Below the pieces are notes generated by a model. That model was not told the origin of the DNA, searched no databases, and saw nothing but the letters and a program-made list of their open reading frames with translations. From SAR324 cluster bacterium (GTDB lineage: Bacteria > SAR324 > NAC60-12), in NCBI GenBank assembly GCA_028282505.1, contig JANQHV010000628.1, positions 1-37,271 on the forward strand: a stretch of DNA of 37,271 bases, given 5' to 3'. Both the position numbers and the translations under genes were made by a program. Of this stretch, positions 1 to 32,838 are shown piece by piece. Each line of letters begins with the position of its first letter. The stretch's first letter is position 1.

Positions 1-43
1 AATTACTCAAGCAGTTGCTCAATCATTGTTACAAAAAGGAACC

Positions 44-1177: not shown

Positions 1178-1180
1178 AAT

Positions 1181-2020: not shown

Positions 2021-2118
2021 AATGTTTCCTCTAAAAACGTCTGATGTCTTCTCATAATTAAGTCATATAATGCCTCATCAAATCAAACATTAAACTTCTG
2101 TTATTATAAAAATCTCAC

Positions 2119-2835: not shown

Positions 2836-2911
2836 AGCTTTTTTGCACTAGCCGATGAGTGGATAAATGTTTACTGGAAAAAGGTAAGATGAAGTTGCAC
2901 TTAAAGGGACA

Positions 2912-3856: not shown

Positions 3857-3891
3857 TGTTGATATTCTTCCAATCAAAGTTCTTATGAAAT

Positions 3892-4500: not shown

Positions 4501-5671
4501 GTCCTATCAAGTAGGGGATACAGCGCATATTGAGCATTTAATAACAGCAGACGATATTGACAAGTTTGTTGAATTGACAGGAGACGATAATCGATTGCAT
4601 GTAGATGCTGACTATGCAAAAAAAACCTCGTTTAAAGGTGTTGTTGCGCATGGAATGCTTGGTGCTTCATTCATTTCAACGATCATTGGTAAACATATCC
4701 CTGGAGATGGGGCTTTATGGGTTTCTCAAAACTTACAATTTCTATTGCCTATTCGTATTGGAGATAAATTGACGATTGCCGCGGAGGTCATTCACGTTCA
4801 GAAGCGGCAAAAGCTGTTAACGCTAAGCATTAAAATTATCAATCAACATAAGCAATTGGTTCAAACAGGGGAGAGCCAGGTAAAGGTACTAGATTTAGAG
4901 GAATCAAAAATCAAAATGGAGCAAGAGCTACAAAAAAAAGTAGTTCTCGTGACAGGAGGAGCAACTGGTATTGGGGCTGCGGTTTCTGCGTTATTGGCAA
5001 ATGAAGGATATCATGTTTTGATTAATTACCGGAATAATAAGATGGGAGCAGAAAACCTGAAACAAGAAATTCTCGCACAGGGAGGGTCTGCAAAAATTTT
5101 CCAGGCGGATGTAACTCATCGGGAAAGTGTGGAAAAAATGGTCCAGGCTACAATCCGTGAATTTGGTGCAGTGACTGCTCTTGTGAATAATGCCACTTCA
5201 AAAATCATTCCTCAGGAATTTGATACGTTAGAATGGGATGATATTGAGACCCACCTCAGGGTGCAGATTCAAGGTGCGTTTAACTGTATTACATGTGTCA
5301 TACCTGAATTGATCAAACATCAGGGAAGTGTAGTTAACGTCAGTACGATCTATACTTCGTCTACTCCTCCAGCAAAGTTATCAGGTTATATTATGGCCAA
5401 AGCCGCAATAGAAGCATTGACCAAGTCATTGGCGGTAGAATATGGCCCCCAGGGAGTAAGGTTTAACACTGTTTCACCAGGGATGACAGAGACGGCTTTG
5501 ATTGCAGATATCCCAGAGAAGGTTCGGCTCTTGACAGCAGCGCAAACTCCACTAAAAAGACTCGCTCAGCCTGAAAATATCGCCCATGCTATTGCATTTC
5601 TTTTAAGTGATCAGGCTCAGCACATTACGGGGGAAAATCTCAAGATTTGTGGCGGATCGGTAATGATTTGA
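4487..5671 (+). CDS. MaoC-like hydratase domain fused to a FabG-like SDR
   Basis: N-term VGDTAHIEHLITADDIDKFVELTGDDNRLHVDADYAKKTSFKGVVAHGMLGASFIS is an R-hydratase/MaoC hot-dog signature. C-term VVLVTGGATGIG...NNAT...YIMAKAAIEALTKSLAVEYG is SDR. ATG at 4487 is a better start than the TTG at 4481. Confidence 0.87.
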   Translation: MNRIESYQVGDTAHIEHLITADDIDKFVELTGDDNRLHVDADYAKKTSFKGVVAHGMLGASFISTIIGKHIPGDGALWVSQNLQFLLPIRIGDKLTIAAEVIHVQKRQKLLTLSIKIINQHKQLVQTGESQVKVLDLEESKIKMEQELQKKVVLVTGGATGIGAAVSALLANEGYHVLINYRNNKMGAENLKQEILAQGGSAKIFQADVTHRESVEKMVQATIREFGAVTALVNNATSKIIPQEFDTLEWDDIETHLRVQIQGAFNCITCVIPELIKHQGSVVNVSTIYTSSTPPAKLSGYIMAKAAIEALTKSLAVEYGPQGVRFNTVSPGMTETALIADIPEKVRLLTAAQTPLKRLAQPENIAHAIAFLLSDQAQHITGENLKICGGSVMI

Positions 5672-5687
5672 GTCTGCCTTATATTGG

Positions 5688-7478: not shown

Positions 7479-7717
7479 TTGTGGAAGAAAAAGTAAAAGA
7501 AATCATGTCCCTTATTTTTAATGTAGATATAGAAGATATCACAGAAGACTCTTCTCCTGACAATCTCGAAAACTGGGATTCTTTAAGGCATATGAACTTT
7601 GTAAATGCCTTGGAAGAAGAGTTTGATATCGAATTAACAGATGAGCAAGTCACTGAAATGATGAATTTTAAACTTGTTCTTGCCGTCCTTAAAGAAATCT
7701 CTCCTTCATCCGCATAG
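7475..7717 (+). CDS. acyl carrier protein
   Basis: 80 aa acidic protein with ENWDSLRHMNFVNALEEEFDIELTDEQV (DSL phosphopantetheine site). GTG start overlaps the FkbH-like stop by 4 nt. Confidence 0.88.
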   Translation: MIVEEKVKEIMSLIFNVDIEDITEDSSPDNLENWDSLRHMNFVNALEEEFDIELTDEQVTEMMNFKLVLAVLKEISPSSA

Positions 7718-7751
7718 ATTTATTTCCCCTCCGTTTTCTTGTAATACCATT

Positions 7752-10419: not shown

Positions 10420-12303
10420 ATGCGGCGTATATTTATTTTTAAGACATCTTGTCCTAAACAGATTAAGCAGTGGAGTCGTCATTGCACTCATTCTCAGCCA
10501 GTGTATTTCTTTCAGAAAAGAACATTGAGTGAGCGTGTATCTCGCTTATTGGTTGAATTAGGATGGAAAGCTCTTCCTCGCTTGAAGCTTGAGGATTCAT
10601 TACGAGAGCGTTTCCTACACGAATACCTGGAAATTGTGGCCCAATTTGCAGAATGGAATGCTCAGACTATTTTCTGGTGGGCAACCCATTTTTCGTCAAA
10701 AAATCGAATCAACTCTCCTGTTTTATTGTTTCTTGAAGAGTGGGTTGAATGTATTCAAGCTATCGAGCTTTGTCCAGATGAGAAAACTCTGGTATTGATA
10801 GATGTTTCCTGGGAAGTCATCGCGGGATTAGACGCACTGGCTGCTAAACATGAATGGGAAATATTGGTTTATGCTTTACCTCTCAACCGATTGTGTTATC
10901 GAATTCAGAAAAAATTTCGATTTTGGAAAAATTTTTTTGGAGAAGTCATAGGAACCATAGTTTCCATAAGGGCCGCACGAAAAACCTTTGGAAGACCAAA
11001 GTTTGCTACTCAATCTAATGCGTTTCGTTATTTGATCAAAAGTTTTACCTATTTGCGTAATTTTAAAGAAAAGGATGAATATATAGATCCGTTTTTTGGT
11101 CATTTGCCAGAGTATATACGGCAGTCTTGTGGCCAGCCTTCATCAGTACTTACGGTGGCATTAGGTTTTCAAGACAGAAAGCAATGTTATGCTTTAATGA
11201 AAGAATTGCCAGTTGCTCTTCATCCTTTGGAAAGCTATCTGAATTATTCAGATGTGTTTGTAAAGGCGTGCCAATGGCTATATCAATTCATGTTCAATAG
11301 ATTCGGAGTAAAAGGAAAAATTGAATTATGGGGCTATGAAGCTACAGCATTTTTCCGTGAGTATGTATTTTGTGGTGGATTAGCCATTTCATTTTTTCAA
11401 TTCATGCATTTTGATGTAGCGAAACGATTAGGGAAAAAATATCAGATTAAAAATTGTTTAATGACTTATGAAGGAAGGCCCTGGGAACGCTTGTTTATTG
11501 CGGGACTAAGGGAATCATGTCCAGATATACACATTATTGGTTGCCAGCATACCGTCATTCCTCTCTCAGCGGCAGACATGTTTTTACACCCACAAGAAAA
11601 AACACTGGTTCCCCTTCCTGATCGAGTGATCACAAATGGTTTAATCACAAAAAAAATATTAGATAAATACAGTGCGTATCCCAAAGAGAAAGTTCATGTG
11701 GGATGTGCATTACGTTTTGAAGCGTTACAAAAACTATCTCTTCTACCTCGGAAAAAAACTCAGGAAACCCAGGAAACTCCGTTTACATTGTTAGTTGCTT
11801 TTGGAGGAAGCGATGAGGAAGTGCCATTATTAAATTATGCTCTACAGCAGGCGTTGGAAATGCCAGAGGTGGTCTTTCGGACGAGAACTCATCCGACATT
11901 CCCATTTGATCAATTATTACAACGTTCTTTGTGGAATGAAAGGAAATTACCGGAAAACTTGCAGGATTCCAGGAAGCCAAGTGTGATTGAGGATCTCCAG
12001 ATTTGTAATGCCGTTTTATATTGGGGGACAACCGTTTCTTTGGAAGCTTTAATGGTTGGGAAGCCTATTATTCAGTTTGATCGAGGAGATTTTTTGAATT
12101 ATGATCCTCTTTTTGAATTCAAAGATTTCAAATGGCCAGTGTGCGAAGGGGTTTCTCTCAGAGACGCTATTCAGGAAATTCGTGATATGCCGGAGGCTCA
12201 GTATGCAGAGCTTCAAGTTAAAGGCAGGAAATATGTGGAGGATTATTTTTATCCAGTGACTTCAGAGTATTTGTCTCTATTTCTTCCGGTTGCAGAATGT
12301 TAA
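10420..12303 (+). CDS. large putative GT-B-like surface carbohydrate biosynthesis protein
   Basis: C-term TLLVAFGGSDEEVPLL...RTHPTFPF...SVIEDLQICNAVLYWGTTVSLEALMVGKPIIQFDRGDF resembles GT-B/capsule-type transferases. Confidence 0.5.
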   Translation: MRRIFIFKTSCPKQIKQWSRHCTHSQPVYFFQKRTLSERVSRLLVELGWKALPRLKLEDSLRERFLHEYLEIVAQFAEWNAQTIFWWATHFSSKNRINSPVLLFLEEWVECIQAIELCPDEKTLVLIDVSWEVIAGLDALAAKHEWEILVYALPLNRLCYRIQKKFRFWKNFFGEVIGTIVSIRAARKTFGRPKFATQSNAFRYLIKSFTYLRNFKEKDEYIDPFFGHLPEYIRQSCGQPSSVLTVALGFQDRKQCYALMKELPVALHPLESYLNYSDVFVKACQWLYQFMFNRFGVKGKIELWGYEATAFFREYVFCGGLAISFFQFMHFDVAKRLGKKYQIKNCLMTYEGRPWERLFIAGLRESCPDIHIIGCQHTVIPLSAADMFLHPQEKTLVPLPDRVITNGLITKKILDKYSAYPKEKVHVGCALRFEALQKLSLLPRKKTQETQETPFTLLVAFGGSDEEVPLLNYALQQALEMPEVVFRTRTHPTFPFDQLLQRSLWNERKLPENLQDSRKPSVIEDLQICNAVLYWGTTVSLEALMVGKPIIQFDRGDFLNYDPLFEFKDFKWPVCEGVSLRDAIQEIRDMPEAQYAELQVKGRKYVEDYFYPVTSEYLSLFLPVAEC

Positions 12304-14413: not shown

Positions 14414-15106
14414 ATGAGCGGTCTTTTTTTAGATACAGGTAATTTAGAAGAAATTAAAAAATATCACGCGATGGGAATCATTCGTGGGGTGACCACCAAT
14501 CCTACCATTTTACTGAAAGATGGAGTTACTGGGGGAATGGAAGGTATTCAGAAACGGACCAAAGACATCGCACGATTGATCAATCCTCTGCCACTCTCTG
14601 TTGAGGTCACCACAAATGACCCAGATGGAATGATAGAACAGGCTGTATCTTTTTCTAAATGGGCTTCGAATATCAATGTCAAAATAACCATTCATGGCCC
14701 CAATGGAGAATTGGATAATCTGGAAGTGATTCATGAACTAGAGAACAAACATGATATCCGAGTGAATGTGACGGCGATGATGAGTGCGCAGCAGTGTTTT
14801 TTAGCAGCAATGGCCGGTGCAACCTATGTCTCTTTATTTGGAGGAAGAGTGAATAACATGGGGTATAACGCGATTGGTGAAATTCAGAAATTGAGAGACT
14901 TGTTAGATAACTTTGGTTTGAAGGCAAAGATTATTATAGGTTCGACTCGTGAGATATTGAACATTTTGGAGTGGTTGCATGCTGGAGCACATATTGTCAC
15001 GGCAACTCCTAATCTGATTGAGGGGATGATTGTGCACCCTTATAGCAAAGAAACCGTTCAGATGTTTTTACGTGATGGAGCAAAAGTGATTGAGGAGTTG
15101 TCATGA
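14414..15106 (+). CDS. transaldolase / fructose-6-phosphate aldolase-like (TalC-type)
   Basis: GLFLDTGNLEEIKKYHAMGIIRGVTTNPTILLKDG, NVKITIHGPNGE, VNVTAMMSAQQCFLAAMAGATYVSLFGGRVNNMG, IIIGSTRE. Confidence 0.93.
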   Translation: MSGLFLDTGNLEEIKKYHAMGIIRGVTTNPTILLKDGVTGGMEGIQKRTKDIARLINPLPLSVEVTTNDPDGMIEQAVSFSKWASNINVKITIHGPNGELDNLEVIHELENKHDIRVNVTAMMSAQQCFLAAMAGATYVSLFGGRVNNMGYNAIGEIQKLRDLLDNFGLKAKIIIGSTREILNILEWLHAGAHIVTATPNLIEGMIVHPYSKETVQMFLRDGAKVIEELS

Positions 15107-15891
15107 TTTCAACTGCAGAACGCTCCTCATTACGCACCAAGCTTCGTGCTCGAAAGAAAGTTTTTGTGGGCTGGCATTCCTTATCACATCCTTCGATTAC
15201 CGAAATTTTTACCCAATGTGGTTTTGACTTTATTGGGATTGACTTGGAACATAGCACTATTAGCCAGGAACAGTCCCAACGCATAATGACTGCCTGCCAG
15301 GCTGCCGGGATTTGTTGCATACCCCGTGTTGCTTCACACAATGGTGAAATGATCAAACGGCTTCTGGATTCAGGGGCAGACGGAATTATGATTCCGATGG
15401 TATCGACTGCTGAAGAAGTAGAGTGCATTATCGATTGGTGTAAATATTCTCCAGTAGGAAAAAGAAGTTTTGGGGTCGGCAGAGCACAGAGATTCGGATT
15501 CGATTATGACGAATACACCACCAATTGGAATGATTCTTCGTCCATTATCATTCAAATCGAAACCATTGAAGGGGTTGAAAATATTGATGTTCTTCTTGAA
15601 TATGAAGAGGTGGACGGGGCGATGGTAGGACCCTATGATTTGTCGGGATCTTTGGGAATTCCCGGACAACTGGATCATCCCAAAGTTGTGCAAGCACGAA
15701 AACGAGTGAATGAAGCTTGTCTTCGATACGGAAAGGCCTCCGGCACCCATTTAGTTTATCCTGATCACCAGCAAATTCATCAGGCCTTTTTAGAGGGGTT
15801 TACTTTTATTGTTTTATCTTCAGATATCTTTTTGCTCTGGAAATGGGCGGAACAAACTCGGGAACATATTGAGTCGTTTCGGGAGAAATAA
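15103..15891 (+). CDS. HpcH/HpaI family aldolase
   Basis: FVGWHSLSHPSITEIFTQCGFDFIGIDLEHSTIS, DSGADGIMIPMVSTAEEVECIIDWCKYSPVGKRSFG, VDGAMVGPYDLSGSLGIPGQ. ATGA overlap with transaldolase. Confidence 0.93.
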   Translation: MISTAERSSLRTKLRARKKVFVGWHSLSHPSITEIFTQCGFDFIGIDLEHSTISQEQSQRIMTACQAAGICCIPRVASHNGEMIKRLLDSGADGIMIPMVSTAEEVECIIDWCKYSPVGKRSFGVGRAQRFGFDYDEYTTNWNDSSSIIIQIETIEGVENIDVLLEYEEVDGAMVGPYDLSGSLGIPGQLDHPKVVQARKRVNEACLRYGKASGTHLVYPDHQQIHQAFLEGFTFIVLSSDIFLLWKWAEQTREHIESFREK

Positions 15892-17276: not shown

Positions 17277-18485
17277 ATGAAAATGAGTTTTATGAGGAGA
17301 ATCGATGATTCTCTTGGCTTTTTTTTATGCAAGTGTTTAGGATGGTTGCTGATCCTGAAAAAGTATCTTTTTACCAGAAGCAGAGTGATTAACAAGGAGG
17401 AAGTTCGAACGATTTTTTGTCAAAAGTATTTTGGAATGGGCAGCATTTTACATGCGATTCCACTAATCAAAGCATTACGTGAAAATTATCCGGAAGCTAG
17501 GATTATTTTTATGACACTCAAATCAAATCAGGAAGTGCTGGAATTATGTAAGATTGCTGATGAAATCCTGATAGTTCGAATTGATTCTTTGAATGAGTTT
17601 ATCAAAGATGTCATGAAACATGCGTTTTACCTGCTAAGAAAAAAAATTGATATTTCCATTGATTTAGAATTTTTTGCCAAATTCAGTTTATTGATCTCTT
17701 TTGTCACGTTGGCCAGAGTGCGAGTTGGATTTCATTTAAAAAATATTCGACCTGAAGGGATCATTACTCATAAAGTCTATTTCAATCACCATCGTCATAT
17801 TACAGAAATCTTTTTTGCCTTTGCCTTTACTCTGGGCATAGAGCGCAAAGATGCTTATTTTACTTCGCCTCTTCTTTCATTTAAGAATCCATTTGGGAAG
17901 AATTTGCTAAAGAGGCATAATATTCCAGAAGATAGTCCGATTGTGGTGGTCAACACCAATGCAAGTGATTTGTTCATTTATCGACGTTGGCCGGAAGAGT
18001 ACTATATCGAGTTAATCGAGGAGTTGATCAAGGTCTATCCACAATACACTTATATGATGATTGGAGGAAATTCGGAGTTTGATTATGTTCAGAATATTTG
18101 TAATCAAATCGAGCATGAGGATGGTCAATTGATCAATTGCGCAAGTCATACCAATCTTGCAGAATTATTTGGTTTGATTGAAATGTCGTTTTTGATGATT
18201 ACCAATGATAGTGGCCCTATGCATATTGCTTCATTATACGGAGCGAATGTCGCTGTGTTTTTTGGCCCTGAAACCCCTATATTATACGGGCCGTTGAATA
18301 AAAATTCTTTGGTCTTTTATCGGAATGAGCAATACTGTTCGCCCTGTATTAGTGTGTATGATAGTAAGAAAACTTTATATGGAGAAGATTGTGGACAGAA
18401 TGATTGTCTCTTAAAGATCAGACCTCAAGAAGTATTTCAAAAAATTGAAAAGCGCTTTTTTATTCCAGAGATAAATAATGAGTGA
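17277..18485 (+). CDS. glycosyltransferase family 9 (heptosyltransferase-like)
   Basis: KYFGMGSILHAIPLIKALRENYPEARIIFMT, HLKNIRPEGIITHKVYF, MITNDSGPMHIASLYGANVAVFFGPETPILYGP; CSPCI...CLLKI typical of GT9. Confidence 0.9.
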   Translation: MKMSFMRRIDDSLGFFLCKCLGWLLILKKYLFTRSRVINKEEVRTIFCQKYFGMGSILHAIPLIKALRENYPEARIIFMTLKSNQEVLELCKIADEILIVRIDSLNEFIKDVMKHAFYLLRKKIDISIDLEFFAKFSLLISFVTLARVRVGFHLKNIRPEGIITHKVYFNHHRHITEIFFAFAFTLGIERKDAYFTSPLLSFKNPFGKNLLKRHNIPEDSPIVVVNTNASDLFIYRRWPEEYYIELIEELIKVYPQYTYMMIGGNSEFDYVQNICNQIEHEDGQLINCASHTNLAELFGLIEMSFLMITNDSGPMHIASLYGANVAVFFGPETPILYGPLNKNSLVFYRNEQYCSPCISVYDSKKTLYGEDCGQNDCLLKIRPQEVFQKIEKRFFIPEINNE

Positions 18486-20461: not shown

Positions 20462-21523
20462 ATGAGGATGAAAGAAATATATATAATGTGGCGAATGTTT
20501 TGGCAGGTCATGCTTGCTAAAATAACTCGAAGACCTCGACCAGTTAGTGTGAATCTACAAGTGACAAAGCATTGCAATCTCGATTGCCCTTATTGCTTTG
20601 CAGACCTCAGTACTCTCAAGGAAATTAAAGATTGGTCCACTACAGAAACACTGGAAACAATCGATGCTCTTTATGAGCGTGGTTGCAGGCATATTATTCT
20701 GATGGGGGGAGAGCCCCTAATGAGAAAAGACATTGGTGAAATTATTCGCTATATCAAGTCTAAATGGATGCGGTGCGAAATAGTGACTAATGGGTACCTT
20801 ATCCAGCAGAGAATAGAAGATTTGAAACTTTTGGATTCAGTTTGCATCAGTTTAGATGGTCCAAAGCATGAAAATGACAGAGTGCGTGGAGCTGGCTGTC
20901 ATGATGCCGTCATTAAGGGTATGCAAGTTTTGAAAGAAAATAAGATCAAGGCAAGGATTCATGCGGTTTTAACTAAATATAATAAGGACTCAGGTTTACC
21001 ATATATTTCAAAATTGGCTAAAGAACATGGCTTTCGATTCAATTTTTCCATGATCATGTTACGTCCGGAGTTGAGACCGGATTTCATCAATTTCTCAGAA
21101 GAGGAAATTGTCAAATTTCTAGATGATTATAAGAAGTGTCGTGATGATGGATATCCTGTTTTTACATCGGATGCTTGTTTTGATTATATGTATAAATGGC
21201 CAAAAAAGGGAGCCTATACCATATATAAATCGGATAACTTGTCACCGGAAGAAATGCGAAATGTCGTTCCCTGCAATTACGGGATGTACAATGCTTTTGT
21301 AGATGTGGATAACAAGGTATACAAATGCCCTTTGACTTGGAAAAACGGGCTCAACTGGAGAGAACATGGAATGGACAAGAGTATTGATCATATAGGAAAG
21401 AATCTGCTCAATTGTGTTTCTTGCCGCAGCATTGGCGATATTGACCGGGCACTTTTACTAAACTTTTCCAGTTTTAGTAATTTGAAAATGGTATCCCAGT
21501 ATATATTGAAAAGAATAAGATAA
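20462..21523 (+). CDS. radical SAM protein with SPASM-like C-terminus
   Basis: VTKHCNLDCPYCFADLS (CxxxCxxC), ILMGGEPLMRKD, C-term VPCNYGMYNAFVDVDNKVYKCPL...NCVSC. Confidence 0.92.
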   Translation: MRMKEIYIMWRMFWQVMLAKITRRPRPVSVNLQVTKHCNLDCPYCFADLSTLKEIKDWSTTETLETIDALYERGCRHIILMGGEPLMRKDIGEIIRYIKSKWMRCEIVTNGYLIQQRIEDLKLLDSVCISLDGPKHENDRVRGAGCHDAVIKGMQVLKENKIKARIHAVLTKYNKDSGLPYISKLAKEHGFRFNFSMIMLRPELRPDFINFSEEEIVKFLDDYKKCRDDGYPVFTSDACFDYMYKWPKKGAYTIYKSDNLSPEEMRNVVPCNYGMYNAFVDVDNKVYKCPLTWKNGLNWREHGMDKSIDHIGKNLLNCVSCRSIGDIDRALLLNFSSFSNLKMVSQYILKRIR

Positions 21524-21527
21524 CGAA

Positions 21528-23411
21528 ATGTACAACTGTTTTACAGATAAAGTTATTGTCGTAACTGGTGCTTCAAAAGGGATTGGGAAACATTTAACTC
21601 ATTTACTGGTAACTTCTGGGGCGAGAGTTGCTGGGATAGCTCGTTCAAAAGATATTTTAGAAGAAACAGCATTGGAGTTTGAAGGGCTTGCAGGGGAATT
21701 CCTAAGAGTCATTTGTGATGTGTCCGATCGTAAATTGGTTTCTGCTGCCATGCGTCAAGTGACTCAGAAGTTGGGGCCGATAGATATTCTGATTAATAAT
21801 GCGGGGATAGGCTTGACAGGTCCTATCATGGAAACGGAGAAAAGGGATGCCACAAAATGTTTTGATGTGAATTTTTATGGGGCTGTGAACTGCATTGAGT
21901 ATACTTTGCCAGAAATGATTCAGCGTCGAAATGGAATAATTGTCAATGTGACTTCTGTTGTCGCAAAGTATGGGCTGCCAACCACTGGCTACTATTCAGC
22001 AGCTAAGGCTGCCCTCAGTGCTTATTCTCAGGCATTGCGAGCAGAAGTTGCTCCAGCAGGTGTGAAAGTGATTACTATATACCCAGGAAATACAGATACT
22101 GAATTTCACAGCAGTCAGTTGACAACCAAAAACTATATTTCAAGAAAAACTCAAAGTAAGCAACTGGATCCAGAGGATGTGGCAAAGAAAATTTTGTCTG
22201 CTATCCAAAAAAACAAAGCAGAAGTAATCATTGGTCGTCCTGCAAAAATCATGATTCTTCTCAAAGCTTTTTTACCTCAGTTGGTTGAATTCCTTGTTAA
22301 AAAAGAACTTGGTGTTGCCCAGTGGTATCGTAAGACGGTGAGTCAGGAAATCAGAATGGATTCGGTGGACCGATGTATTCAAGAAGGAATACCTCTAAAA
22401 AATATGGATCGTTCTTGTCGGTATCATCAGTCTACAGAGCTTGTACATTGGTGGAATGTTGTGCCAGAAGGACTCAAACCTTCTTTACAGTATATTCTCT
22501 ATCCTTATCTTTTAGCAACAACTTATGGTGGTAAGTTACCTGAAGATCAAACATATCAACATCCGTTATTAACTAATGAGAAGCTGACCGATATTAAGGA
22601 GAAATCCCCGGCTCTATTGGAGCAAATTAAAAATTTTATTAAAACCTGTTTATTACCTGTCATGCCAATGGGTAGAGCAAAATCTGCCCCTGAGATTAAA
22701 ATTGGTAAGAATATTTATCCCTTTGACTTGGGGCAAGGTGGTACTTTATGCCCTGCTTCGTTTCGCTCGTTTTTTCCTTTTTTAGCTAGAAAACGTTTAA
22801 AGGATGAAAAAGAGAATATTTCATCGAGTTGGGAAGTATGCTGTCCTGATCATTTAAAGAATTTAACGTTTGGTAGTGGTAAAGGTGATACGGATTTTTA
22901 TGATTCAATTTGTTTTTGGGGAAAGTCGGCTGAAATTAAGGCACTTTCTCCATGCAAATCACAAATTAATACTGCCAGTCATTCTCTTGATGATATCGCT
23001 AAACAATTGGAAATTCCATGTCCGACCTTGCTGAATGTGGCTTACGGATACTACCTGACTTTGGAGAGGGGAGGAGAATTAGGGTTTTATAGTAAAAGCC
23101 TGGATGCAGGGATTTTTCAATGCCCTAATCCTCGTTCCAGAGTGGTTGTTGAGATATCCAAAAACAATGCCGCAATTAACTTCAAGGTTATTAATGTTAT
23201 TGGAGATGCATGCCCTAGAGGGATACATAAAGATGATGAATTTGATTTGCCCAAAAAGAGTGGTGAAAACAAATTTTGTATGGATGCTTTCAATTCTTTA
23301 TATTTGTATGCAGGACTTTCAGAGTTTTTGAAGACACCTCTTACGGTACAATGTGCTTTAAACAACTGTCCGTCTTCTTGGCAAGTCCATCATCATAACA
23401 CAGTTGCCTGA
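21528..23411 (+). CDS. SDR fused to a long Cys-containing C-terminal region with TIGR04076-like repeats
   Basis: aa 1-275 classical SDR (VVTGASKGIGKHL, NNAGIG, YYSAAKAAL). C-terminal VINVIGDACPRGIHKDDEFDLP...FCMDAFNSLYLYAG resembles the TIGR04076 pattern, with a related-looking segment upstream (PFDLGQGGTLCPASFRSFFPFL). Confidence 0.8.
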   Translation: MYNCFTDKVIVVTGASKGIGKHLTHLLVTSGARVAGIARSKDILEETALEFEGLAGEFLRVICDVSDRKLVSAAMRQVTQKLGPIDILINNAGIGLTGPIMETEKRDATKCFDVNFYGAVNCIEYTLPEMIQRRNGIIVNVTSVVAKYGLPTTGYYSAAKAALSAYSQALRAEVAPAGVKVITIYPGNTDTEFHSSQLTTKNYISRKTQSKQLDPEDVAKKILSAIQKNKAEVIIGRPAKIMILLKAFLPQLVEFLVKKELGVAQWYRKTVSQEIRMDSVDRCIQEGIPLKNMDRSCRYHQSTELVHWWNVVPEGLKPSLQYILYPYLLATTYGGKLPEDQTYQHPLLTNEKLTDIKEKSPALLEQIKNFIKTCLLPVMPMGRAKSAPEIKIGKNIYPFDLGQGGTLCPASFRSFFPFLARKRLKDEKENISSSWEVCCPDHLKNLTFGSGKGDTDFYDSICFWGKSAEIKALSPCKSQINTASHSLDDIAKQLEIPCPTLLNVAYGYYLTLERGGELGFYSKSLDAGIFQCPNPRSRVVVEISKNNAAINFKVINVIGDACPRGIHKDDEFDLPKKSGENKFCMDAFNSLYLYAGLSEFLKTPLTVQCALNNCPSSWQVHHHNTVA

Positions 23412-24945
23412 TAGTCTTATGAAACGGTATGCGTTATTCTCTGTAGATCAGACAGAAGGTCTCCTACATTTTGCAGAGTGCCTTACTTCAATCGGGTGGA
23501 CTATTATCGCAACATCAGTACCTTATACAATTTTAAAGGATGCGGGCATTGATGTGATTTCAGTTGATGATTTTGTTGATATCAAAAATGAGTATGGATT
23601 TCCTTTAACGTTGCATCCCAAAATTGAATATGCTTTGACGGTGAATGGTGCAGAAGAAAGGATCGAACTGGTATATGACATTACCTATGGATTGGAAGCT
23701 GGAAATGATGTGGGAGGGCATACATTGCTTGCTTTAGCTGCAAAAGGAAATCGCTTTCCCGTCTCATCATATGGCGAGATGGTTGACTTGGTTTCTATTC
23801 TGTCTGGTGGAGAAGAAAACTTGGAAGCTGAGCGGCAAAAGCTGATTGATCGTGCTCATTTCAAAATTGCCAAACATTATGCCCGTATGCTTTCGATTTC
23901 CAATCAGCAGCAATATGAAACCGTATTACTTTCAAAAGAAAATGATTTGTTGAATGGAGAGAATCCATATCAAGTTGCCAGTCTTATGAAACAGGAATCG
24001 AGTGATCCGCTCGCATTGCATCGTTTTCAATTGATAACAGAGAATCGGCCTTGTTTTACAAATATGGCCGATATGGATTGTATTGTCGAGGGCCTTAGTA
24101 AAATCCATCTCGCATTTCAACGAATTCGGGGTAAAACGCCTTATCTTACAATTGCGGCAAAACATGGCAACCCATGTGGGGTTGGGATGGATTGGAATGA
24201 TCCTTCAAAGTCGATTTATAAGGCGTTATGGGGCGATCCTCTGGCAATCTGGGGTGGTGAAGTCATTACTAATTTTGTGATTTCTGCTGAAAGTGCTTCA
24301 CTGTTACGTTCCAGCAGTTCAAGAGGGGAACTCTATGGTAACGATAAATGGATGCTGGATCTCATTGTTGCTCCTGAAATCGATACAGGGGCTTGTGATA
24401 TCTTGAAACGCCGCAAGAATACTAAAATTTTTACTAATCCTCAGTTGGTGAATCCTGGTTTACCACAGGAAAGCCAGGTACACCGGTTTGTTCGTGGTGG
24501 TACGCTTTGTCAATCTCCACTTTCTTATATATTGAGTTTAAGAGATGTGACATGGGTTGGAACACCACTGAGTGAAGACCAGATGGATTCCTTGATCATT
24601 GCCTGGGGGTGTGCGTATGTTTCCAACCAGGGAGGGAATGAAGTAGCTATCGCAAAGGATGGTTGCCTCTTGGGAATTGGGGGAGGACCTTCGACAGTGA
24701 ATGCTGCTGAAATCGCGGTGCAACGCAGTTTAAAATCCAATCAGGCTATGCATGATGCCATTTTTGCTGCAGATGCTTTTTTTCCATTTACCGATGCTCC
24801 TGAAATTTTGGTAAACGCAGGCTGTAATGCAGGAATTGTCCCTGCTGGAGGGATTCGGCAAAATGAAGTAGTAAGATATTTTAAAGAAGAGCGGGTAAGT
24901 GTCGCCCTGCTTAAAGAAGAATATCGTGGGTTTTGTAGACACTGA
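23404..24945 (+). CDS. divergent PurH-like (AICAR transformylase/IMP cyclohydrolase family) protein
   Basis: YALFSVDQTEGLLHFAECLTSIGWTIIAT (MGS-like domain), LTLHPKIEYAL, AAKHGNPCGVG (KHxNPCG), AKDGCLLGIGGGPSTVNAAEIA, AFFPFTDAPEILVNAGCNAGIVPAGG. Confidence 0.85.
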   Translation: MPDSLMKRYALFSVDQTEGLLHFAECLTSIGWTIIATSVPYTILKDAGIDVISVDDFVDIKNEYGFPLTLHPKIEYALTVNGAEERIELVYDITYGLEAGNDVGGHTLLALAAKGNRFPVSSYGEMVDLVSILSGGEENLEAERQKLIDRAHFKIAKHYARMLSISNQQQYETVLLSKENDLLNGENPYQVASLMKQESSDPLALHRFQLITENRPCFTNMADMDCIVEGLSKIHLAFQRIRGKTPYLTIAAKHGNPCGVGMDWNDPSKSIYKALWGDPLAIWGGEVITNFVISAESASLLRSSSSRGELYGNDKWMLDLIVAPEIDTGACDILKRRKNTKIFTNPQLVNPGLPQESQVHRFVRGGTLCQSPLSYILSLRDVTWVGTPLSEDQMDSLIIAWGCAYVSNQGGNEVAIAKDGCLLGIGGGPSTVNAAEIAVQRSLKSNQAMHDAIFAADAFFPFTDAPEILVNAGCNAGIVPAGGIRQNEVVRYFKEERVSVALLKEEYRGFCRH

Positions 24946-25011: not shown

Positions 25012-26016
25012 ATGACAAAATTAAATAATTTTCGATTTGACAAAATAAAAACAGTCTATGGGTACTATGCGAATCGACATGTATTGGGAACTTATCCCAT
25101 GCAAGTTGCCATAGAATTAACCAATAGGTGTAATTTAAAATGCGTTATGTGTCCTCATGATAGGATGACCCGATCACAAGGGAATATGTCAGAGGAACTG
25201 TTTAAGAAAATTATTGACCAGCTTCAAGGAAAGTCTGAATTTGTTTATTTATACGGCATGGGGGAGTCTATGTTGCATCCCCAATTCTTTTCTTTAGCTG
25301 ATTATGCTGTTCAAAGTGGTCTAACGACCTCTCTTTCAACCAATATTACTTTGCTGAACGAAGAGAAGAGCCGGAAGCTTCTTGAGAGTGGTATTGATTT
25401 TATTGTATTGCCACTGGATGGGGCTGGGAAAGACTCTTATGAAAGTGTTCGAGTCGGTGGAAAATTTGAAAAGAATGTTGAACGTATCAAAACTCTGCTT
25501 AGAATAAAGCGTGAGTTAAATGCAAAAGCATATGTTGATATTCAGTATATAGTCTTGGATGAAGCAAATCAGATGGGACATGTGGAAGACCTGTTTACAG
25601 AAGAGGAAAAATCTGTGGTGAACATGTTTAGAAAAAAGCCTGTCTTAAAATCGCCTTCAATCACCACTGAAGAAATCAATCATCAACATCCTTGTTATTT
25701 TCTTTGGAGTACCATGGATATCAGCTGGGATGGCCGAGTTTCTTTATGTTGCATGGATTATGATACGGAAGTGGTATTTGGTGATTTATCAAAAACTTCT
25801 ATTTGGGAAGTTTGGAACAGCGAAGAGATGGCAGACTATAGACGAATGCATAAAAATTTAGAATACTCAAAAATGCCTATTTGCAACAAGTGTCTGCTTC
25901 CTGAAAAGAAATATTTTTCTGATGCTACGATTTTAGCCAGCTCTCTTCTCAGTGCTGGTACGTTGCGAAGATTACTTCCTGTTTATGAAAAAATCATTTC
26001 TAAAAAAAATGGTTGA
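25012..26016 (+). CDS. radical SAM/SPASM protein
   Basis: ELTNRCNLKCVMCPHDRM; C-term DISWDGRVSLCCMDYDTEVVFGDLSKTSIWEVWNSEEM...CNKC. Confidence 0.93.
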   Translation: MTKLNNFRFDKIKTVYGYYANRHVLGTYPMQVAIELTNRCNLKCVMCPHDRMTRSQGNMSEELFKKIIDQLQGKSEFVYLYGMGESMLHPQFFSLADYAVQSGLTTSLSTNITLLNEEKSRKLLESGIDFIVLPLDGAGKDSYESVRVGGKFEKNVERIKTLLRIKRELNAKAYVDIQYIVLDEANQMGHVEDLFTEEEKSVVNMFRKKPVLKSPSITTEEINHQHPCYFLWSTMDISWDGRVSLCCMDYDTEVVFGDLSKTSIWEVWNSEEMADYRRMHKNLEYSKMPICNKCLLPEKKYFSDATILASSLLSAGTLRRLLPVYEKIISKKNG

Positions 26017-26043: not shown

Positions 26044-27147
26044 ATGAGAAAACATAATTTTTTAGATGATGTTGTCCACAAAAGTCGTTTGTATATGGGC
26101 GTTGTAAAAGCACAAACCCATAAAAAAATGGTACCCGTTGTTGCGAACTTGTATGTCACGGGAAGATGTAATGCGACATGTACATACTGTTATGTGGAAA
26201 TCAATAAGAAACCTAAACGCGAATTTTCTTTACAGCAGTGGAAAAAGCTGGTTGATGATCTCTATGTAAAAGGAACTCGTCTTTTTGCTTTAGTTGGAGG
26301 TGAACCACTTTTGTATCCAAAAATTGATGAGCTGGCGGAGCATATTATTTCAAAAAATGTGTATTTGAACTTAGCGACCAATGGATTTTTGCTTGATAAG
26401 CATTTAGAGATTGCCAGGATGGCAGATGAAGTTTCTATCAGTCTGGATGGTGACTTAGCCTCGCATAATTTAAATCGGGGAAATCGAAATTTTGAACGAA
26501 CAATGAAAGGTATTGATACCGCAATAGAAGCTGGTTGTAAAGTACGACTTTGTACAGTTGTTACACGCCATAATGCTGACATGATAGATTATTTAGTTGA
26601 CTTTGCTGAAGAAAGAAACATCTTTGTGACTTTTACTCCTCTTATTGATGCTCCGGATTTAAGAAAGGATGCTTCCGAACAACTACGTCTTTCTGATGAG
26701 GAAATACGAGAATTTTTTTTAAAACTAAAAGAAGTAAAGAAAAAATCCTCTCGTATCATTAATTCGTTTGCCAATATGGATTATATGATCAATTATCCCG
26801 TGCAATACGGAGAGGTCATTTGGAAAAATAGTCCTCATGCTGATTATTACCCTCATCCTTGTCCCTATGGAAGATTTCAGTTCTTAATCTCGAGTGTAGG
26901 TGAAATTTTTCCGTGTGGAATCATGTGGAATAATGATTACTTCGAGCCTAAAAATGTTCTTGATGTAGGACTAGATGAAGCATTGGAACACGCGTCTCAA
27001 GGACTGAAGTGTCAAAGTTGTTCTTTTGCAAATAGTGTTGACTGGAATAATGTCACTTCGCTGCCCTGGCTTTGGTATGGTGTGAAAATGACAGTAAAGC
27101 AATCATTTGGAAAACGGAAAATTCCTGTTTTGAGTGAAGTCTCATAA
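26044..27147 (+). CDS. radical SAM protein with SPASM-like C-terminus
   Basis: YVTGRCNATCTYCYVEINKK, LVGGEPLLYPKI, CPYGRFQFLISSVGEIFPCGIMWNN...CQSC. Confidence 0.93.
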   Translation: MRKHNFLDDVVHKSRLYMGVVKAQTHKKMVPVVANLYVTGRCNATCTYCYVEINKKPKREFSLQQWKKLVDDLYVKGTRLFALVGGEPLLYPKIDELAEHIISKNVYLNLATNGFLLDKHLEIARMADEVSISLDGDLASHNLNRGNRNFERTMKGIDTAIEAGCKVRLCTVVTRHNADMIDYLVDFAEERNIFVTFTPLIDAPDLRKDASEQLRLSDEEIREFFLKLKEVKKKSSRIINSFANMDYMINYPVQYGEVIWKNSPHADYYPHPCPYGRFQFLISSVGEIFPCGIMWNNDYFEPKNVLDVGLDEALEHASQGLKCQSCSFANSVDWNNVTSLPWLWYGVKMTVKQSFGKRKIPVLSEVS

Positions 27148-28273
27148 TTGGTGGTGGGTGAAAATGTTATCTAAAGTAAATACAGATAGGATCTTAGACT
27201 TGTATGGCCAGGCCAGGAGCTTTATGCCTGCAATGATCAGGAGACCTCTGGGGTATTATTTTTATATTACGGGCCTTTGTAATTTAAATTGTGATTATTG
27301 CTGGCAACGTGAAATGCCCGATAGGGAATCTGAAAATACAAAATCCCGTCGTAATGAGTTGAGCAAAGATGAATGGTTGAAAATCATAAATACCGTTCCT
27401 AGATTGGCCTTTGTTGGGTTAACGGGTGGTGAGCCAATGATCCATCCTGGTTTTCAGGATATTATCCAATTGTTGAGTGGGCGCAATCCCTATACAATTA
27501 ATACAAATGGATTCTACCTGAATGATAAAATTTTGAGAGATTTAATTGAATATAAAGCTTCTAATTTGTCTATTTCTATTGATGGATTTTCAGATGTTCA
27601 TGATTATTCACGGGGCAAACCCGGACTTTTCAATCATATAGTAGAACAAATTAAGAAGCTCAATGAATTGAAAGAAAAAACAGGGGCAAAAAAGCCATCA
27701 ATCACCATCAAAACGGTTCTTTTAGATCCAATTGTTGATAGGTTGGAAGAATTTTATCACTTTTGTGATCAGACCCTGAAAGCCGATTGTTTAAATATTT
27801 CCATTATGAAAACTACGGAGCATGCTCAGTATGATTTTCGTGTTTATGACAATTTAAAGGGAGTTGCTGCTGCCGGTGAACCAATATGTCATAGTTATGA
27901 AAAGAAACAGCAAATTCCAGATGTGCTGATTGATCTATTAAATCTCTCTAAAAAACACAACTGTCAGGTGCTTTATTATCCCAGGGTCACAGGAGATGCT
28001 GCTATCAGGCATCTTTTTGAGTCTGAAGGCAAGGATGGGTTTACATCGTGTTATGTACCTTGGACACTGATTGTTATTTTATCTGAAGGATCAGTTATCC
28101 CCTGTTTGTCGGTCAAATTGAGCAATATCCGGGATTTGGACTATGATGTGAAAAGGATCGATGAGTTGAAAAAGTATAATGATTTTTTAAAATGGCGTTC
28201 TAGCATGAATCATGCTGAGAAATCGCCTGCTGTGTGTAATATGTGTTGTTTTTCAAAGGTAAAAAAAGATTAA
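27134..28273 (+). CDS. radical SAM protein with SPASM-like C-terminus
   Basis: YITGLCNLNCDYCWQREM, LTGGEPMIHPGF, C-term CYVPWTLIVILSEGSVIPCLSVKL...CNMCC. Track start overlaps the upstream ORF; ATG at 27164 is an alternative. Confidence 0.92.
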   Translation: MKSHNWWWVKMLSKVNTDRILDLYGQARSFMPAMIRRPLGYYFYITGLCNLNCDYCWQREMPDRESENTKSRRNELSKDEWLKIINTVPRLAFVGLTGGEPMIHPGFQDIIQLLSGRNPYTINTNGFYLNDKILRDLIEYKASNLSISIDGFSDVHDYSRGKPGLFNHIVEQIKKLNELKEKTGAKKPSITIKTVLLDPIVDRLEEFYHFCDQTLKADCLNISIMKTTEHAQYDFRVYDNLKGVAAAGEPICHSYEKKQQIPDVLIDLLNLSKKHNCQVLYYPRVTGDAAIRHLFESEGKDGFTSCYVPWTLIVILSEGSVIPCLSVKLSNIRDLDYDVKRIDELKKYNDFLKWRSSMNHAEKSPAVCNMCCFSKVKKD

Positions 28274-28393: not shown

Positions 28394-29221
28394 ATGCACA
28401 AGGAAATCTTCTACAAAAACAAAGTAGTAGTAGTCACAGGTGCTTCAAAGGGGATTGGTAAAAGTTTAGTTTATTTGTTGGTCGCTTCAGGCGCAAAAGT
28501 TGCTGGTTTGGCACGTTCTGTGGAACTATTAGACGCAATCACCTTAAAAACAGAAAAACTTTCCGGAACTTTTTTACCTATTGATTGTGATGTAAGCGAC
28601 CGAAACGAGGTTAAATCTGCTATCGAAATAATACGTAGTAAATTTGAAAAGATTGATATTCTTATTAATAATGCTGGAGTAGGATTGACAGGGCCATCCT
28701 ATCAGACTGATAGAAGAGAAATAGTGAAATGTTTTGATGTTAATTTTTTTGGTGCATTAAACTGTATTGAGCCTGTATTACCTGAGATGCTTGAACGCCA
28801 ACAAGGTACTATTGTGAACATTGCATCCATTGTAGCCAAATATGGATTGCCGGCAAATAGTTATTACTCTGCTGCGAAAGCGGCACTAGTATCTTATACT
28901 CAAGCTCTGCGTGCAGAAGTTGCCCCGGCAAATATTAACGTTTTGACTATCTACCCAGGTAGTACAGATACCGAGTTTCAAAAAGATCAATCAAAAACTC
29001 CAGGTTTCATTCCTAATAAACCAAATAAGAGTAGGCAACTTAGTTCTAATTTAGCAGCTAAGAAAATTCTATTTGCCATTGAAAAGAATAAAAGAGAATT
29101 TATTATTAGTCGCACTACAAAAATGATGATCTTTTTAAAAACTTTTTTTCCATTTGTTGCAGAATATATTGTAATAAAAATTTTTGGTACGGAAAAGTGG
29201 CATTCTCAGAAAAAATTATAA
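28394..29221 (+). CDS. short-chain dehydrogenase/reductase (paralogue of the SDR domain at 21528)
   Basis: VVVTGASKGIGKSLVYLLVASGAKVAGLARS, NNAGVGLTGP, YYSAAKAALVSYTQALRAEVAP; very similar to the SDR half of 21528-23411. Confidence 0.92.
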   Translation: MHKEIFYKNKVVVVTGASKGIGKSLVYLLVASGAKVAGLARSVELLDAITLKTEKLSGTFLPIDCDVSDRNEVKSAIEIIRSKFEKIDILINNAGVGLTGPSYQTDRREIVKCFDVNFFGALNCIEPVLPEMLERQQGTIVNIASIVAKYGLPANSYYSAAKAALVSYTQALRAEVAPANINVLTIYPGSTDTEFQKDQSKTPGFIPNKPNKSRQLSSNLAAKKILFAIEKNKREFIISRTTKMMIFLKTFFPFVAEYIVIKIFGTEKWHSQKKL

Positions 29222-29279: not shown

Positions 29280-29957
29280 ATGAGCAAATTGATGAAGAAC
29301 CCAATTACGCAAATAAGCCATTGGATTAAAAATCATTATGACAACCATTATTCTTCTATCACCGTGGGGGAAAATGGGAACCATATTGTTTCTTATAAGG
29401 ATGGTAGTAAATATGAAGGGCAGTGGAAAAACGGACAACGAAACGGAGAAGGTGTAATTTTCTACAATAACGGCGAAAAGGAGTATGAAGGGCACTGGAA
29501 GGATGATCAACGGCATGGAGAAGGCGTTGAGTACTTTTATATGGAAAAAATAAAAAAGTACGAGGGAGGATGGAAAGAAGGCAAAAAACATGGTAATGGA
29601 GTCCTCTATAATAGTAAAGGGATGAAACGCTATGAAGGACAATGGAAAGACGGTTACCGTCATGGGAGCGGAGCTTTATATTTTGATAAAGTAGAAAAAA
29701 AAAGATACGAAGGAGAATGGGAAAAAGGTTTTCCCTGCGGTCAAGGAATACAGTACTATAAAAACGGTCAAATTGAATATGAAGGAATATTTGATCACCG
29801 GTTTTATGGAGATGGAAATTATTATGACAAACAAGGCGAGGTCTTACAAGATCAATGGAAAGGCGTTCATGTTTCTTTTAAAGGAAAGTTAAAACACAGA
29901 ACGGAAAAGAATGAGCATGAATTTGAACAGAAAAATTTTATTAAAGGACATTATTGA
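29280..29957 (+). CDS. MORN-repeat protein
   Basis: About six successive YEGxWKxGxxxGxGxxxY repeats (YEGQWKNGQRNGEGVIFY, YEGHWKDDQRHGEGVEYF, YEGGWKEGKKHGNGVLY, YEGQWKDGYRHGSGALYF, YEGEWEKGFPCGQGIQYY, YEGIFDHRFYGDGNYY). Confidence 0.95.
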   Translation: MSKLMKNPITQISHWIKNHYDNHYSSITVGENGNHIVSYKDGSKYEGQWKNGQRNGEGVIFYNNGEKEYEGHWKDDQRHGEGVEYFYMEKIKKYEGGWKEGKKHGNGVLYNSKGMKRYEGQWKDGYRHGSGALYFDKVEKKRYEGEWEKGFPCGQGIQYYKNGQIEYEGIFDHRFYGDGNYYDKQGEVLQDQWKGVHVSFKGKLKHRTEKNEHEFEQKNFIKGHY

Positions 29958-30187
29958 TGGTTTCGTAAAAAATATATTCATAAAATTATCGAGTATAATA
30001 CTTTAGACTGTTTTTATGAAAAATATTAATAATATCAGTGTTTTGATTCTGTTTTGTCACTGATTGAAATCATTAACCACAAAACTTTATAATCACTTAA
30101 AAAGTGTCCGAACCATTGTGAATACATAAGGCTTCATTTAAAACAAGTTTGAAAATAATCATTAGGAAACTCAAGCCAGGGTGTAAT

Positions 30188-31258
30188 ATGTTTCAGAAAG
30201 CTAAACATTTTGTTAGTCATTCAAAAATCATCAAAAGAAATATTAATCTTATTCCTAAAATTGCTTCAGGTTATTATAAAACGTTAGTGTTGAAGCAAAA
30301 CGTTTTGCGTACTTTGGAACTAGCCCTTTTAACCGAATGTAACTCTGAGTGTGTGATGTGTTATGCTACTGAAATGAAAAGAGAAGATGACCATTACTTA
30401 ACGCCCGAAGAATATAGAAATTTGTGGCAGCAAGCTAGAAAACTAGGGGCTTTCTCTGCGATATTATCAGGTGGAGAACCCACTATGCGCAAAGAATTTT
30501 TTGAGATTGTAGAGGCATTAAATCCTCATGATTCGATTATTGGTTTAGTTTCAAATTCTTCAATGCTAAATAGACCATTTTTGAAAGATTTGAAAAAAGC
30601 AGGCATTGAAACCTTACATTTAAGCTTAGATAGTTTAGATGAGGAAAAAAATGATCGAATTCGTGGTATGCCAGGACATTACAGACATGTAATGTATGCG
30701 ATAGAAGAAGGTAAAAAGCAAGGATTTCACGTATTTCTGAGTACTGTTATCATGCGTGACGGAATGGATAAAATGAAAGAAATCGTGCAATTTGCCATGA
30801 AAAATGAAATCGGTGTAATTTTCTCGTTAGCCTGTGTATCCGGTGAGTGGTCTCAAGCTAAAGACGTGCTTCTGACTGATGAAGAATGGAAGTATGTTCA
30901 AAACTATATGAAAAAAAATAACGGAATAATTCGATCTGATTGGACCATCAATTTATCAATGAAGACAGAATGCCCAGGAGGAAGGGAAAAAATTTCGGTT
31001 TCTCCTTATGGTGATATACAGGGATGTGGTATGAATTATGTTTCTTTCGGAAATATTCGAGAAGAACCTCTTGAAAGAATTTGGAGACGTTCATGTGAAT
31101 TTCCAGACTTTAAAAGAAGGCCGACTTCTTGTCTGATCGGTGCGGACATGGATTATATTGAACGTTATATTCGTCCATTGTCAGGAAAGACCGTCCCTGT
31201 CCAAATTGATCAGCATCCCACCAATCCCATTTCTTTTGCTGAATTGGAGGGGCGATAA
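30188..31258 (+). CDS. radical SAM/SPASM protein
   Basis: LLTECNSECVMCYATEMKRE, ILSGGEPTMRKEFFEIVEAL, C-term CPGGREKISVSPYGDIQGCGMNYVSFGNIREEPLERIWRRS. ATG at 30188 preferred over the track TTG at 30149. Confidence 0.92.
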   Translation: MFQKAKHFVSHSKIIKRNINLIPKIASGYYKTLVLKQNVLRTLELALLTECNSECVMCYATEMKREDDHYLTPEEYRNLWQQARKLGAFSAILSGGEPTMRKEFFEIVEALNPHDSIIGLVSNSSMLNRPFLKDLKKAGIETLHLSLDSLDEEKNDRIRGMPGHYRHVMYAIEEGKKQGFHVFLSTVIMRDGMDKMKEIVQFAMKNEIGVIFSLACVSGEWSQAKDVLLTDEEWKYVQNYMKKNNGIIRSDWTINLSMKTECPGGREKISVSPYGDIQGCGMNYVSFGNIREEPLERIWRRSCEFPDFKRRPTSCLIGADMDYIERYIRPLSGKTVPVQIDQHPTNPISFAELEGR

Positions 31259-31302: not shown

Positions 31303-32838
31303 ATGATAGAAACAAAAAACATGGGTGGGGTTGTGATGATACAACCCAATACTTCATTAACAGGTTCCTTTATCCGGATGCTCCCGCTTGGGGTGCTTTA
31401 TGCCTCGAGTAAAATCATAAAAGATGGATTTTCTGTAGATATTTTAGATACGCGTGTTGTGCGCTCATCTTGGAAAGAAAAACTGGCTGGAATGATAAAA
31501 GACGATACACTGGTGGTGGGGCTGTCTGTCATGAGTGGTTATTCTATTATTGAGAGTGTCAAGATCTCACGTTTTGTGAAAGAGAAATGGCCTGCGGTGA
31601 AAGTGGTGTGGGGTGGGCCTCATCCTACGTTTAGTCCAGATGATGTATTGTTGGAGTCTGCCATTGATTTCGCAATTAGTGGGTATGGGGCAGAACCTTT
31701 TCGGCAGTTAATGCAAAATTTAATTAATAGTGAACAAGCCTTACCGTTTGAACAAATCAATGGATTGTCCTGGAGAGATGAAAACGGGCTGGTTCATATT
31801 AATAAAGCAACCAACAGTTTTGAATTTATTCACTATGAGGACATTCCCTACGATCTTATTGAAAATTTTCAAGATTATAAGCATATAGATACGGATGAAA
31901 AAGTATTTCCCATGTATAGTGTGATGGGATGCCCCTATAAATGCTCTTTTTGTAGTTCTCCCGCACAATATTCAAACATTAAGAAAAAATGGGAGCAATA
32001 CCCCTTGGAAGAAATTGTCGAGCATATCAAATTTGTGAAAGAGAAATATGGTGCGACGTTTGTCTATTTCATTGATGATGATTCTTTTGTCAATTTAAAA
32101 CATGTGGAAGGCATTATTGACCAACTGAATGAAGATAAAATAAAAATCAAATTAGGATTTCGAGGGGCTCGTATCAATGAGATTATCAAGATGAGCGATC
32201 AATTTCTCGAGAAACTGGCAGCAGCTGGCACCAACACGATGCACATTGGTATTGAATCCGGGTCAAATCGGCTTCTCAAATTAATGAAAAAAAACACCAC
32301 AGTGGAGCAAATCGTCAAAGTCAATCAAAAATTAGCAAGACATCCAGAAATCACAGTTTTTTATAATTTCATAGTAGGGTATCCTACTGAGACTTTGGAG
32401 GAAACAAAACAAACAAGAGACTTAATTCTGCGTCTTGTTCAAGATAATCCCACTTGCTGTGTGATACCCCTCAATAAACCGAGACCATTACCGGGAACAG
32501 AATTATATGAATTGGCTGTCAGTTTTGGATATCAGGGACCTAAAACCCTGGAAGGATGGGGTGAGTATGATGTTGAATCCTCTGACTACAGGGTGGAGTG
32601 GTTAACAGAGGAGCATAATAAGTTTATCCGCATGATGTTTTTATGCATGTATTTTATTGATAATAAGATCCTTCAGCTTTCCAAAGGCCGTAGCCTTAAG
32701 TACACTTTTTTGAAAATTATGGCAGCACTGTATAAACCTGTGGCAACATTCCGTTTTAAATATGGCATCGACAAACTGTTGATCGAAGATATATTTTATT
32801 CTTTCTTCAATTGGTTAATTAAAAGCTCTCATCCTTAA
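31303..32838 (+). CDS. B12-binding-domain radical SAM protein
   Basis: N-term PNTSLTGSFIRMLPLGVLYASSKIIKDGFSVDILDTR...VVWGGPHPTFSPDDVL (cobalamin-binding-type fold), MGCPYKCSFCSSPAQYS, VYFIDDDSFVN, GIESGSNRLLKLMKK. Confidence 0.92.
   Translation: MIETKNMGGVVMIQPNTSLTGSFIRMLPLGVLYASSKIIKDGFSVDILDTRVVRSSWKEKLAGMIKDDTLVVGLSVMSGYSIIESVKISRFVKEKWPAVKVVWGGPHPTFSPDDVLLESAIDFAISGYGAEPFRQLMQNLINSEQALPFEQINGLSWRDENGLVHINKATNSFEFIHYEDIPYDLIENFQDYKHIDTDEKVFPMYSVMGCPYKCSFCSSPAQYSNIKKKWEQYPLEEIVEHIKFVKEKYGATFVYFIDDDSFVNLKHVEGIIDQLNEDKIKIKLGFRGARINEIIKMSDQFLEKLAAAGTNTMHIGIESGSNRLLKLMKKNTTVEQIVKVNQKLARHPEITVFYNFIVGYPTETLEETKQTRDLILRLVQDNPTCCVIPLNKPRPLPGTELYELAVSFGYQGPKTLEGWGEYDVESSDYRVEWLTEEHNKFIRMMFLCMYFIDNKILQLSKGRSLKYTFLKIMAALYKPVATFRFKYGIDKLLIEDIFYSFFNWLIKSSHP

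Follow-up and report, generated by a model that had tools for sequence, protein, structure and literature searches.

PurH, the bifunctional AICAR formyltransferase/IMP cyclohydrolase (ATIC in human), is usually regarded as a single-purpose purine enzyme. The known sugar N-formyltransferases (ArnA-, VioF- and WbkC-type) belong to another family, PF00551. The cyclohydrolase residues of ATIC are Lys66, Tyr104, Asp125 and Lys137, and its AICAR contacts include Arg208, Tyr209, Lys267, His268 and Arg589 (PMC3261824; these contacts are numbered one higher than in this work). Outside purine synthesis, second sets of Pur-like enzymes act in formycin biosynthesis (PMC8724604), where ForH is a PurH-family protein in a specialised pathway (PMC7118188).

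The gene described here encodes a protein sharing with bifunctional PurH the fold, the domain order, the catalytic Lys-His and Asn, and the folate-side FFPF.D motif, but only 26–28% identical to it. The gene lies in a 37,271-nucleotide stretch of DNA from a SAR324 cluster bacterium (hereafter the window), which constitutes contig C348; the genome totals 7.57 Mb, is divided into 692 contigs and is estimated to be 88% complete. The relevant features of the window are as follows.

17277–18485, + strand: glycosyltransferase family 9 (heptosyltransferase-like), with a 38% identical counterpart in locus L205
20462–21523, + strand: radical SAM protein, preceding the TIGR04076 modules
21528–23411, + strand: SDR (residues ~1–270) fused to two TIGR04076-type Cys-rich modules, A then B
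23404–24945, + strand: PurH-like gene, 513 aa from TTG; probable start ATG 23419
PurH-like protein, domains: MGS/IMPCH-like N-terminal, ~8–165; AICARFT-like C-terminal, ~175–513
PurH-like protein, residues: catalytic Lys253-His254 and Asn412; rewired pocket Trp283, Glu286, Gly411, Glu413 and Thr431
25012–26016, + strand: radical SAM protein with SPASM, co-directional with the PurH-like gene
26044–27147, + strand: radical SAM protein, co-directional with the PurH-like gene
27134–28273, + strand: radical SAM protein with SPASM, co-directional with the PurH-like gene
28394–29221, + strand: second SDR, related to the SDR part of the fusion at 21528–23411
30149–31258, + strand: radical SAM/SPASM protein, with counterparts near PurH-like genes at L203:3045-4100 (34%) and L205:7062-8111 (36%)
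31303–32838, + strand: B12-binding radical SAM protein, with counterparts near the PurH-like gene in L203, L205 and L207

The ORF at 23404–24945 is a real, divergent PurH homologue. Its product matched PF01808 (AICARFT_IMPCHas; 112 bits, E = 4e-32, cut-off 25), the only domain found by Pfam analysis, with PF00551 absent. The scores against NF002049 (185.6 bits) and TIGR00355 (129 bits) were far below the respective equivalog cut-offs of 402 and 528. PF02142 (MGS) gave no match in the N-terminal half of the window protein; it matched this half of an archaeal orthologue (29 bits), and PDB PurH chains aligned to it in the window protein, so both PurH halves are present, in agreement with a preliminary description made from the sequence of the window alone. 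The motifs quoted there (KHGNPCG, ATSVP, LTLHPKIEYA and GGGPSTVNAA) were all found as given. Since the orthologues start at the equivalent of Met6, ATG 23419, located 7 nt past the stop of the upstream gene, is the likely start. The AlphaFold model (mean pLDDT 89.6) has a confident PurH fold, and among PDB entries it most resembles bacterial PurH structures (TM 0.76–0.78). ForH (PDB 6nko) was also among the Foldseek matches, over one domain-sized region (E = 4e-8). This protein offers a precedent for the recruitment of a PurH-family member to a specialised pathway, but it is a one-domain protein of ~190 aa, and the formycin pathway draws on a set of Pur-like enzymes; no gene for any of them adjoins the PurH-like gene of the window.

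Residues were mapped on an alignment with human ATIC, E. coli PurH and about 40 further sequences; the numbering follows a human ATIC sequence of 592 residues, the C-terminal part of which agrees with the PDB alignment. Among the formyltransferase contacts of the window protein, Arg207 is replaced by Leu, Tyr208 by Asn and Arg451 by Thr. In the N-terminal domain, Lys66 is replaced by Leu and Lys14 by Thr, and the STGGT loop is lost. Arg451 and Lys14 are presumed to touch phosphate. The retained residues are Lys266, His267, Asn431, Phe541, Pro543, Phe544 and Asp546 in the C-terminal domain and Tyr104, Asp125 and Lys137 in the N-terminal domain. The equivalent of Arg588 is ambiguous: the C-terminal YRGFCRH displaces the Arg by one residue, and one phosphate contact may thus remain.

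The window protein is probably not the purine enzyme of its genome. An intact, 400-aa stand-alone AICAR formyltransferase is encoded on contig C543 (L161:1328-2530; 220 bits) and PurO, an archaeal-type IMP cyclohydrolase, on contig C657 (L162; 166 bits), so that 23404–24945 would not be needed for purines. The possibility left in the preliminary description, that this is the only purH of the genome, therefore does not hold. The stand-alone enzyme shares the PF01808 superfamily domain with the window protein but belongs to a eukaryote-type branch, where it pairs with human ATIC (support 100/100), and keeps all AICAR contacts. SAICAR synthetase is also encoded in this genome, and its single PF02142 match is a 1072-codon frame, taken by its size to be CarB. 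For a bacterium, pairing a stand-alone formyltransferase of eukaryote type with a cyclohydrolase of archaeal type is an unusual purine-pathway mix. Each of the six genomes carrying an orthologue of the PurH-like gene encodes a canonical PurH (381–417 bits); another AICAR formyltransferase is thus present in 7/7 carriers.

These orthologues (at least six; 44–48% identity to the window protein) comprise one from a DPANN archaeon and five from the phylum of an Omnitrophota MAG, an assignment of that phylum that rests on the title of locus L058. The Candidatus Iainarchaeum (DPANN) protein (44.5% identity over 510 aa) was among the matches listed from a DNA pattern scan for KHGNPCG, which were mostly ordinary PurH. 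The other five (45–48%) came from 384 genomes of the Omnitrophota phylum. No orthologue was found in the other 51 of the 52 genomes of the window's phylum or in the other 86 genomes of the archaeon's phylum, and 380 Patescibacteria contained only related purine-type PurH. Peptide-pattern searches of genome and viral contigs found no orthologue, the two viral-contig loci with the KHGNPCG pattern lack a PurH-like gene, and phage and plasmid records contained only ordinary PurH (24–27% identity).

Comparison of the seven proteins revealed a common signature. None of them varies in the catalytic Lys, His and Asn or in the FFPF.D motif. Equally invariant are the changes R451T, S430G, F315W, S538A and S565G, Glu at 432, Cys at 236, and the motifs GGPST, WGGE and RGFCRH; R207 and Y208 are lost in every case. 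The loss of Arg451, which the preliminary description had reported while allowing for misalignment, is genuine. At Arg451 and Ser430 no variation was seen among the 61 sequences compared, which comprised 24 Patescibacteria-type and 37 other PurH. Tyr104, Asp125 and Lys137 are retained in the six full-length proteins; the seventh (L207) is 363 aa long and has no N-terminal domain. Mean identity among the seven is 47% in the formyltransferase domain and 43% in the N-terminal domain. Sequencing noise does not explain pocket changes that are found again in six other proteins, and a coordinated, conserved change of the pocket with the catalytic residues kept points to a functional enzyme with a different acceptor rather than to decay.

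In a tree of the formyltransferase domain alone, which includes some long branches, the seven proteins formed one clade (100/99). The archaeal protein nested among those from Omnitrophota (98/91), for which transfer between phyla would be the simplest reading. The seven fell within a larger clade (100/100) together with proteins, mostly from Patescibacteria, that carry KHGNPCG, GQQDR and RGFFGH motifs; the sister of the seven (100/96) is L180, whose gene lies in a purine operon. These Patescibacteria-type PurH, nearest in the tree, share KHGNPCG, the loss of Lys66 and an RGF..H end with the window-type proteins, but retain R451, S430, the SGGT loop and mostly Y208; their GQQDR, which contains Arg451, is replaced by GGP-ST in 7/7 window-type proteins. 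Several of them adjoin genes for SAICAR synthetase, AIR carboxylase, adenylosuccinate lyase or adenylosuccinate synthetase. Given these neighbours, they are predicted to be purine enzymes, though most have Val for Lys66, and a non-purine role considered for them was rejected. Altered contacts alone are consequently no proof of a new substrate, since Patescibacteria proteins with K66V, R207K and S450D sit in purine operons. Two features were also discarded as diagnostic: KHGNPCG, which occurs in many ordinary PurH including the purine PurH of Patescibacteria, and the loss of Lys66, which is common to the Patescibacteria-type purine PurH.

Little was found in the literature on PurH in Patescibacteria, and several further features of this group were observed. 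The purine-operon PurH of L180–L197 (Patescibacteria), L038 and L048 mostly have Val for Lys66 and Asp for Ser450, two residues that we take to be important in ATIC. At L190:7974-9622 (− strand) PurH is split: a canonical-looking cyclohydrolase ORF, which retains Lys66 and is 50% identical to E. coli, comes first, and the Patescibacteria-type formyltransferase has an ORF of its own after it. Formyltransferase-only copies of this type are also present in non-Patescibacteria hosts (L118:3912-4967, L023:4127-5167, L044:6780-7919 and L043:4080-5318), which carry canonical PurH as well, found only as a fragment in the genome of L118.

Analysis of the neighbourhoods showed that no purine gene adjoins any of the seven PurH-like genes and that TIGR04076-type modules and radical SAM genes are located near five of them. 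The preliminary description had placed the gene in a co-directional group with SDR and radical SAM rather than purine genes; the radical SAM association and the absence of purine neighbours recur. Modules A and B are separate genes in Omnitrophota, and their fusion to an SDR was seen only in the window. The conserved partner is thus a radical SAM/TIGR04076 cassette rather than the SDR. Of the five Omnitrophota-phylum loci, four (L203, L204, L205 and L207) contain TIGR04076-type genes close to the PurH-like gene; in all of the four but L205 these genes directly precede it. On contigs of sufficient length, they are themselves preceded by a match of the radical SAM protein encoded at 20462–21523 (L205:9228-10283, 36%; L207:8119-9189, 28%; L204:7354-8418, 26%). 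L205 carries, in this order, radical SAM, A, B, two radical SAMs, PurH-like and B12-radical SAM. When 218 loci (1.59 Mb) were searched with models of the modules, matches were confined to the window and these four loci (with overlapping copies); as the models were trained on the same modules, the informative part is their silence in the other loci. Little was found in the literature on the function of TIGR04076.

L154 and L206 have neither TIGR04076 nor radical SAM partners. L206, which adjoins a gene read as DAHP synthase, is not clearly a glycan locus. Several of the seven are surface-glycan loci. Glycan genes surround the copy in L204 and the archaeal copy; the archaeal locus, which contains no TIGR04076-type modules, encodes a DegT aminotransferase-GNAT fusion, a nucleotide-sugar dehydrogenase, an epimerase, a flippase and a glycosyltransferase. 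The window also encodes glycosyltransferases, cytidylyltransferases and nucleotide-sugar enzymes; no DegT-type aminotransferase was found in it by Pfam.

The homology, residue changes, purine redundancy, clade and cassette, all read from sequence, are consistent with the product of 23404–24945 being a neofunctionalised PurH paralogue, a folate-dependent formyltransferase for an amine other than AICAR, probably without a 5′-phosphate; the probability of this reading is estimated at roughly 0.62. Its gene would have common ancestry with the Patescibacteria-type purine PurH and would have spread among unrelated phyla, including an archaeon, usually inside a cassette of a radical SAM enzyme, paired TIGR04076-type Cys-rich modules and the PurH-like protein. 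Since the catalytic and FFPF.D residues are kept, the C-terminal domain is predicted to bind 10-formyl-tetrahydrofolate (10-formyl-THF) in the ancestral pocket, and Lys253, His254 and Asn412 would transfer the formyl group to the amine of the acceptor. In the rebuilt pocket the Arg contacts are lost and Glu413 and Glu286 are gained beside conserved pocket residues; on these grounds the acceptor would more likely be amine-bearing or cationic, and probably without a 5′-phosphate. The radical SAM enzymes may make the acceptor or process it further. The N-terminal cyclohydrolase-type domain, in which the phosphate loop and Lys66 are altered and which one orthologue lacks, is presumably secondary. 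A surface glycan or glycolipid is the probable destination of the product, an assignment drawn from locus content and weaker than the predictions of donor and acceptor. We give even odds to the broader proposal that the radical SAM enzymes, TIGR04076 modules and PurH-like formyltransferase constitute an undescribed mobile cassette found in two or more bacterial phyla, its PurH-like gene occurring in an archaeon too, and that in it a former purine enzyme formylates an acceptor which is neither phosphorylated nor AICAR and is destined for a surface glycan, a glycolipid or a related product.

The preliminary description had suggested formylation of an amine on a sugar or other metabolite. In a narrow form, that of an N-formyltransferase for a surface-glycan amino sugar (nucleotide- or lipid-linked), this is a tentative alternative. 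The glycosyltransferases, cytidylyltransferases and nucleotide-sugar enzymes of the window and the DegT fusion, epimerase, flippase and dehydrogenase of the archaeal locus would fit it, but no such aminotransferase was found in the window by Pfam, the best-conserved partners are radical SAM and TIGR04076 proteins instead of sugar enzymes, and L206 has neither. The chemistry proposed is that of the PF00551 enzymes, in which a glycan-pathway amine receives the formyl group of 10-formyl-THF, but these are of a different family than the PF01808 protein of the window. The alteration of both ancestral phosphate sites, with Tyr104, Asp125 and Lys137 retained in 6/6 full-length proteins, suggests another acceptor, a non-phosphorylated AICAR-like or nucleoside-like compound made with the radical SAM enzymes, which the protein would formylate and perhaps cyclise. 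The Pur-like enzymes of formycin biosynthesis (PMC8724604) and the ForH match are in keeping with such a pathway; it is nevertheless unlikely, as other pur-like genes are not beside the PurH-like gene, Lys66 is lost and the cyclohydrolase domain is absent in L207. A nucleoside-like unit joined via carbon 5′ by radical SAM chemistry is speculation.

The identical fold and catalytic residues, the position of the closest outgroup (L180) in a purine operon and the variation of several contact positions in Patescibacteria purine PurH could be expected of a divergent yet ordinary AICAR formyltransferase/IMP cyclohydrolase, carried by gene transfer and redundant with the canonical enzyme. This is improbable: R451, S430 and Y208 are changed in 7/7 proteins, the first two being invariant in both groups of comparison PurH, purine genes adjoin none of the seven, and redundancy in every carrier genome predicts loss, not 44–48% conservation across phyla. 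Still less probable is a pseudo-enzyme, a folate-binding or scaffold protein devoid of transferase activity that supports the radical SAM enzymes; the loss of several substrate contacts and the conserved association with radical SAM and Cys-rich modules are compatible with it, but the catalytic Lys, His and Asn and FFPF.D are invariant, and across lineages the mean identity of the transferase domain is 47%.

If the non-AICAR formyltransferase reading is true, a second protein family is added to those formylating unusual acceptors, and the little-studied TIGR04076 family gains a conserved partner and a testable role. The existence of several intact orthologues makes the donor and the acceptor class directly assayable. 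Automatic annotation of such genes as purH would mislead metabolic reconstructions.

Other genes of the window also deserve mention. A repeat-rich protein of the YEGQW/G type, with MORN-like repeats, is encoded among the radical SAM genes (29280–29957), and two proteins of 709 and 627 aa without a Pfam match are encoded among the glycan genes (7674–9803 and 10420–12303, respectively). Unusual glycan-precursor genes lie in the regions 26–7478 and 14414–15891; they encode a cytidylyltransferase-cupin fusion, a MaoC-SDR fusion, an FkbH-like protein, a transaldolase and an HpcH/HpaI-type aldolase, a gene content that suggests an uncommon sugar acid.
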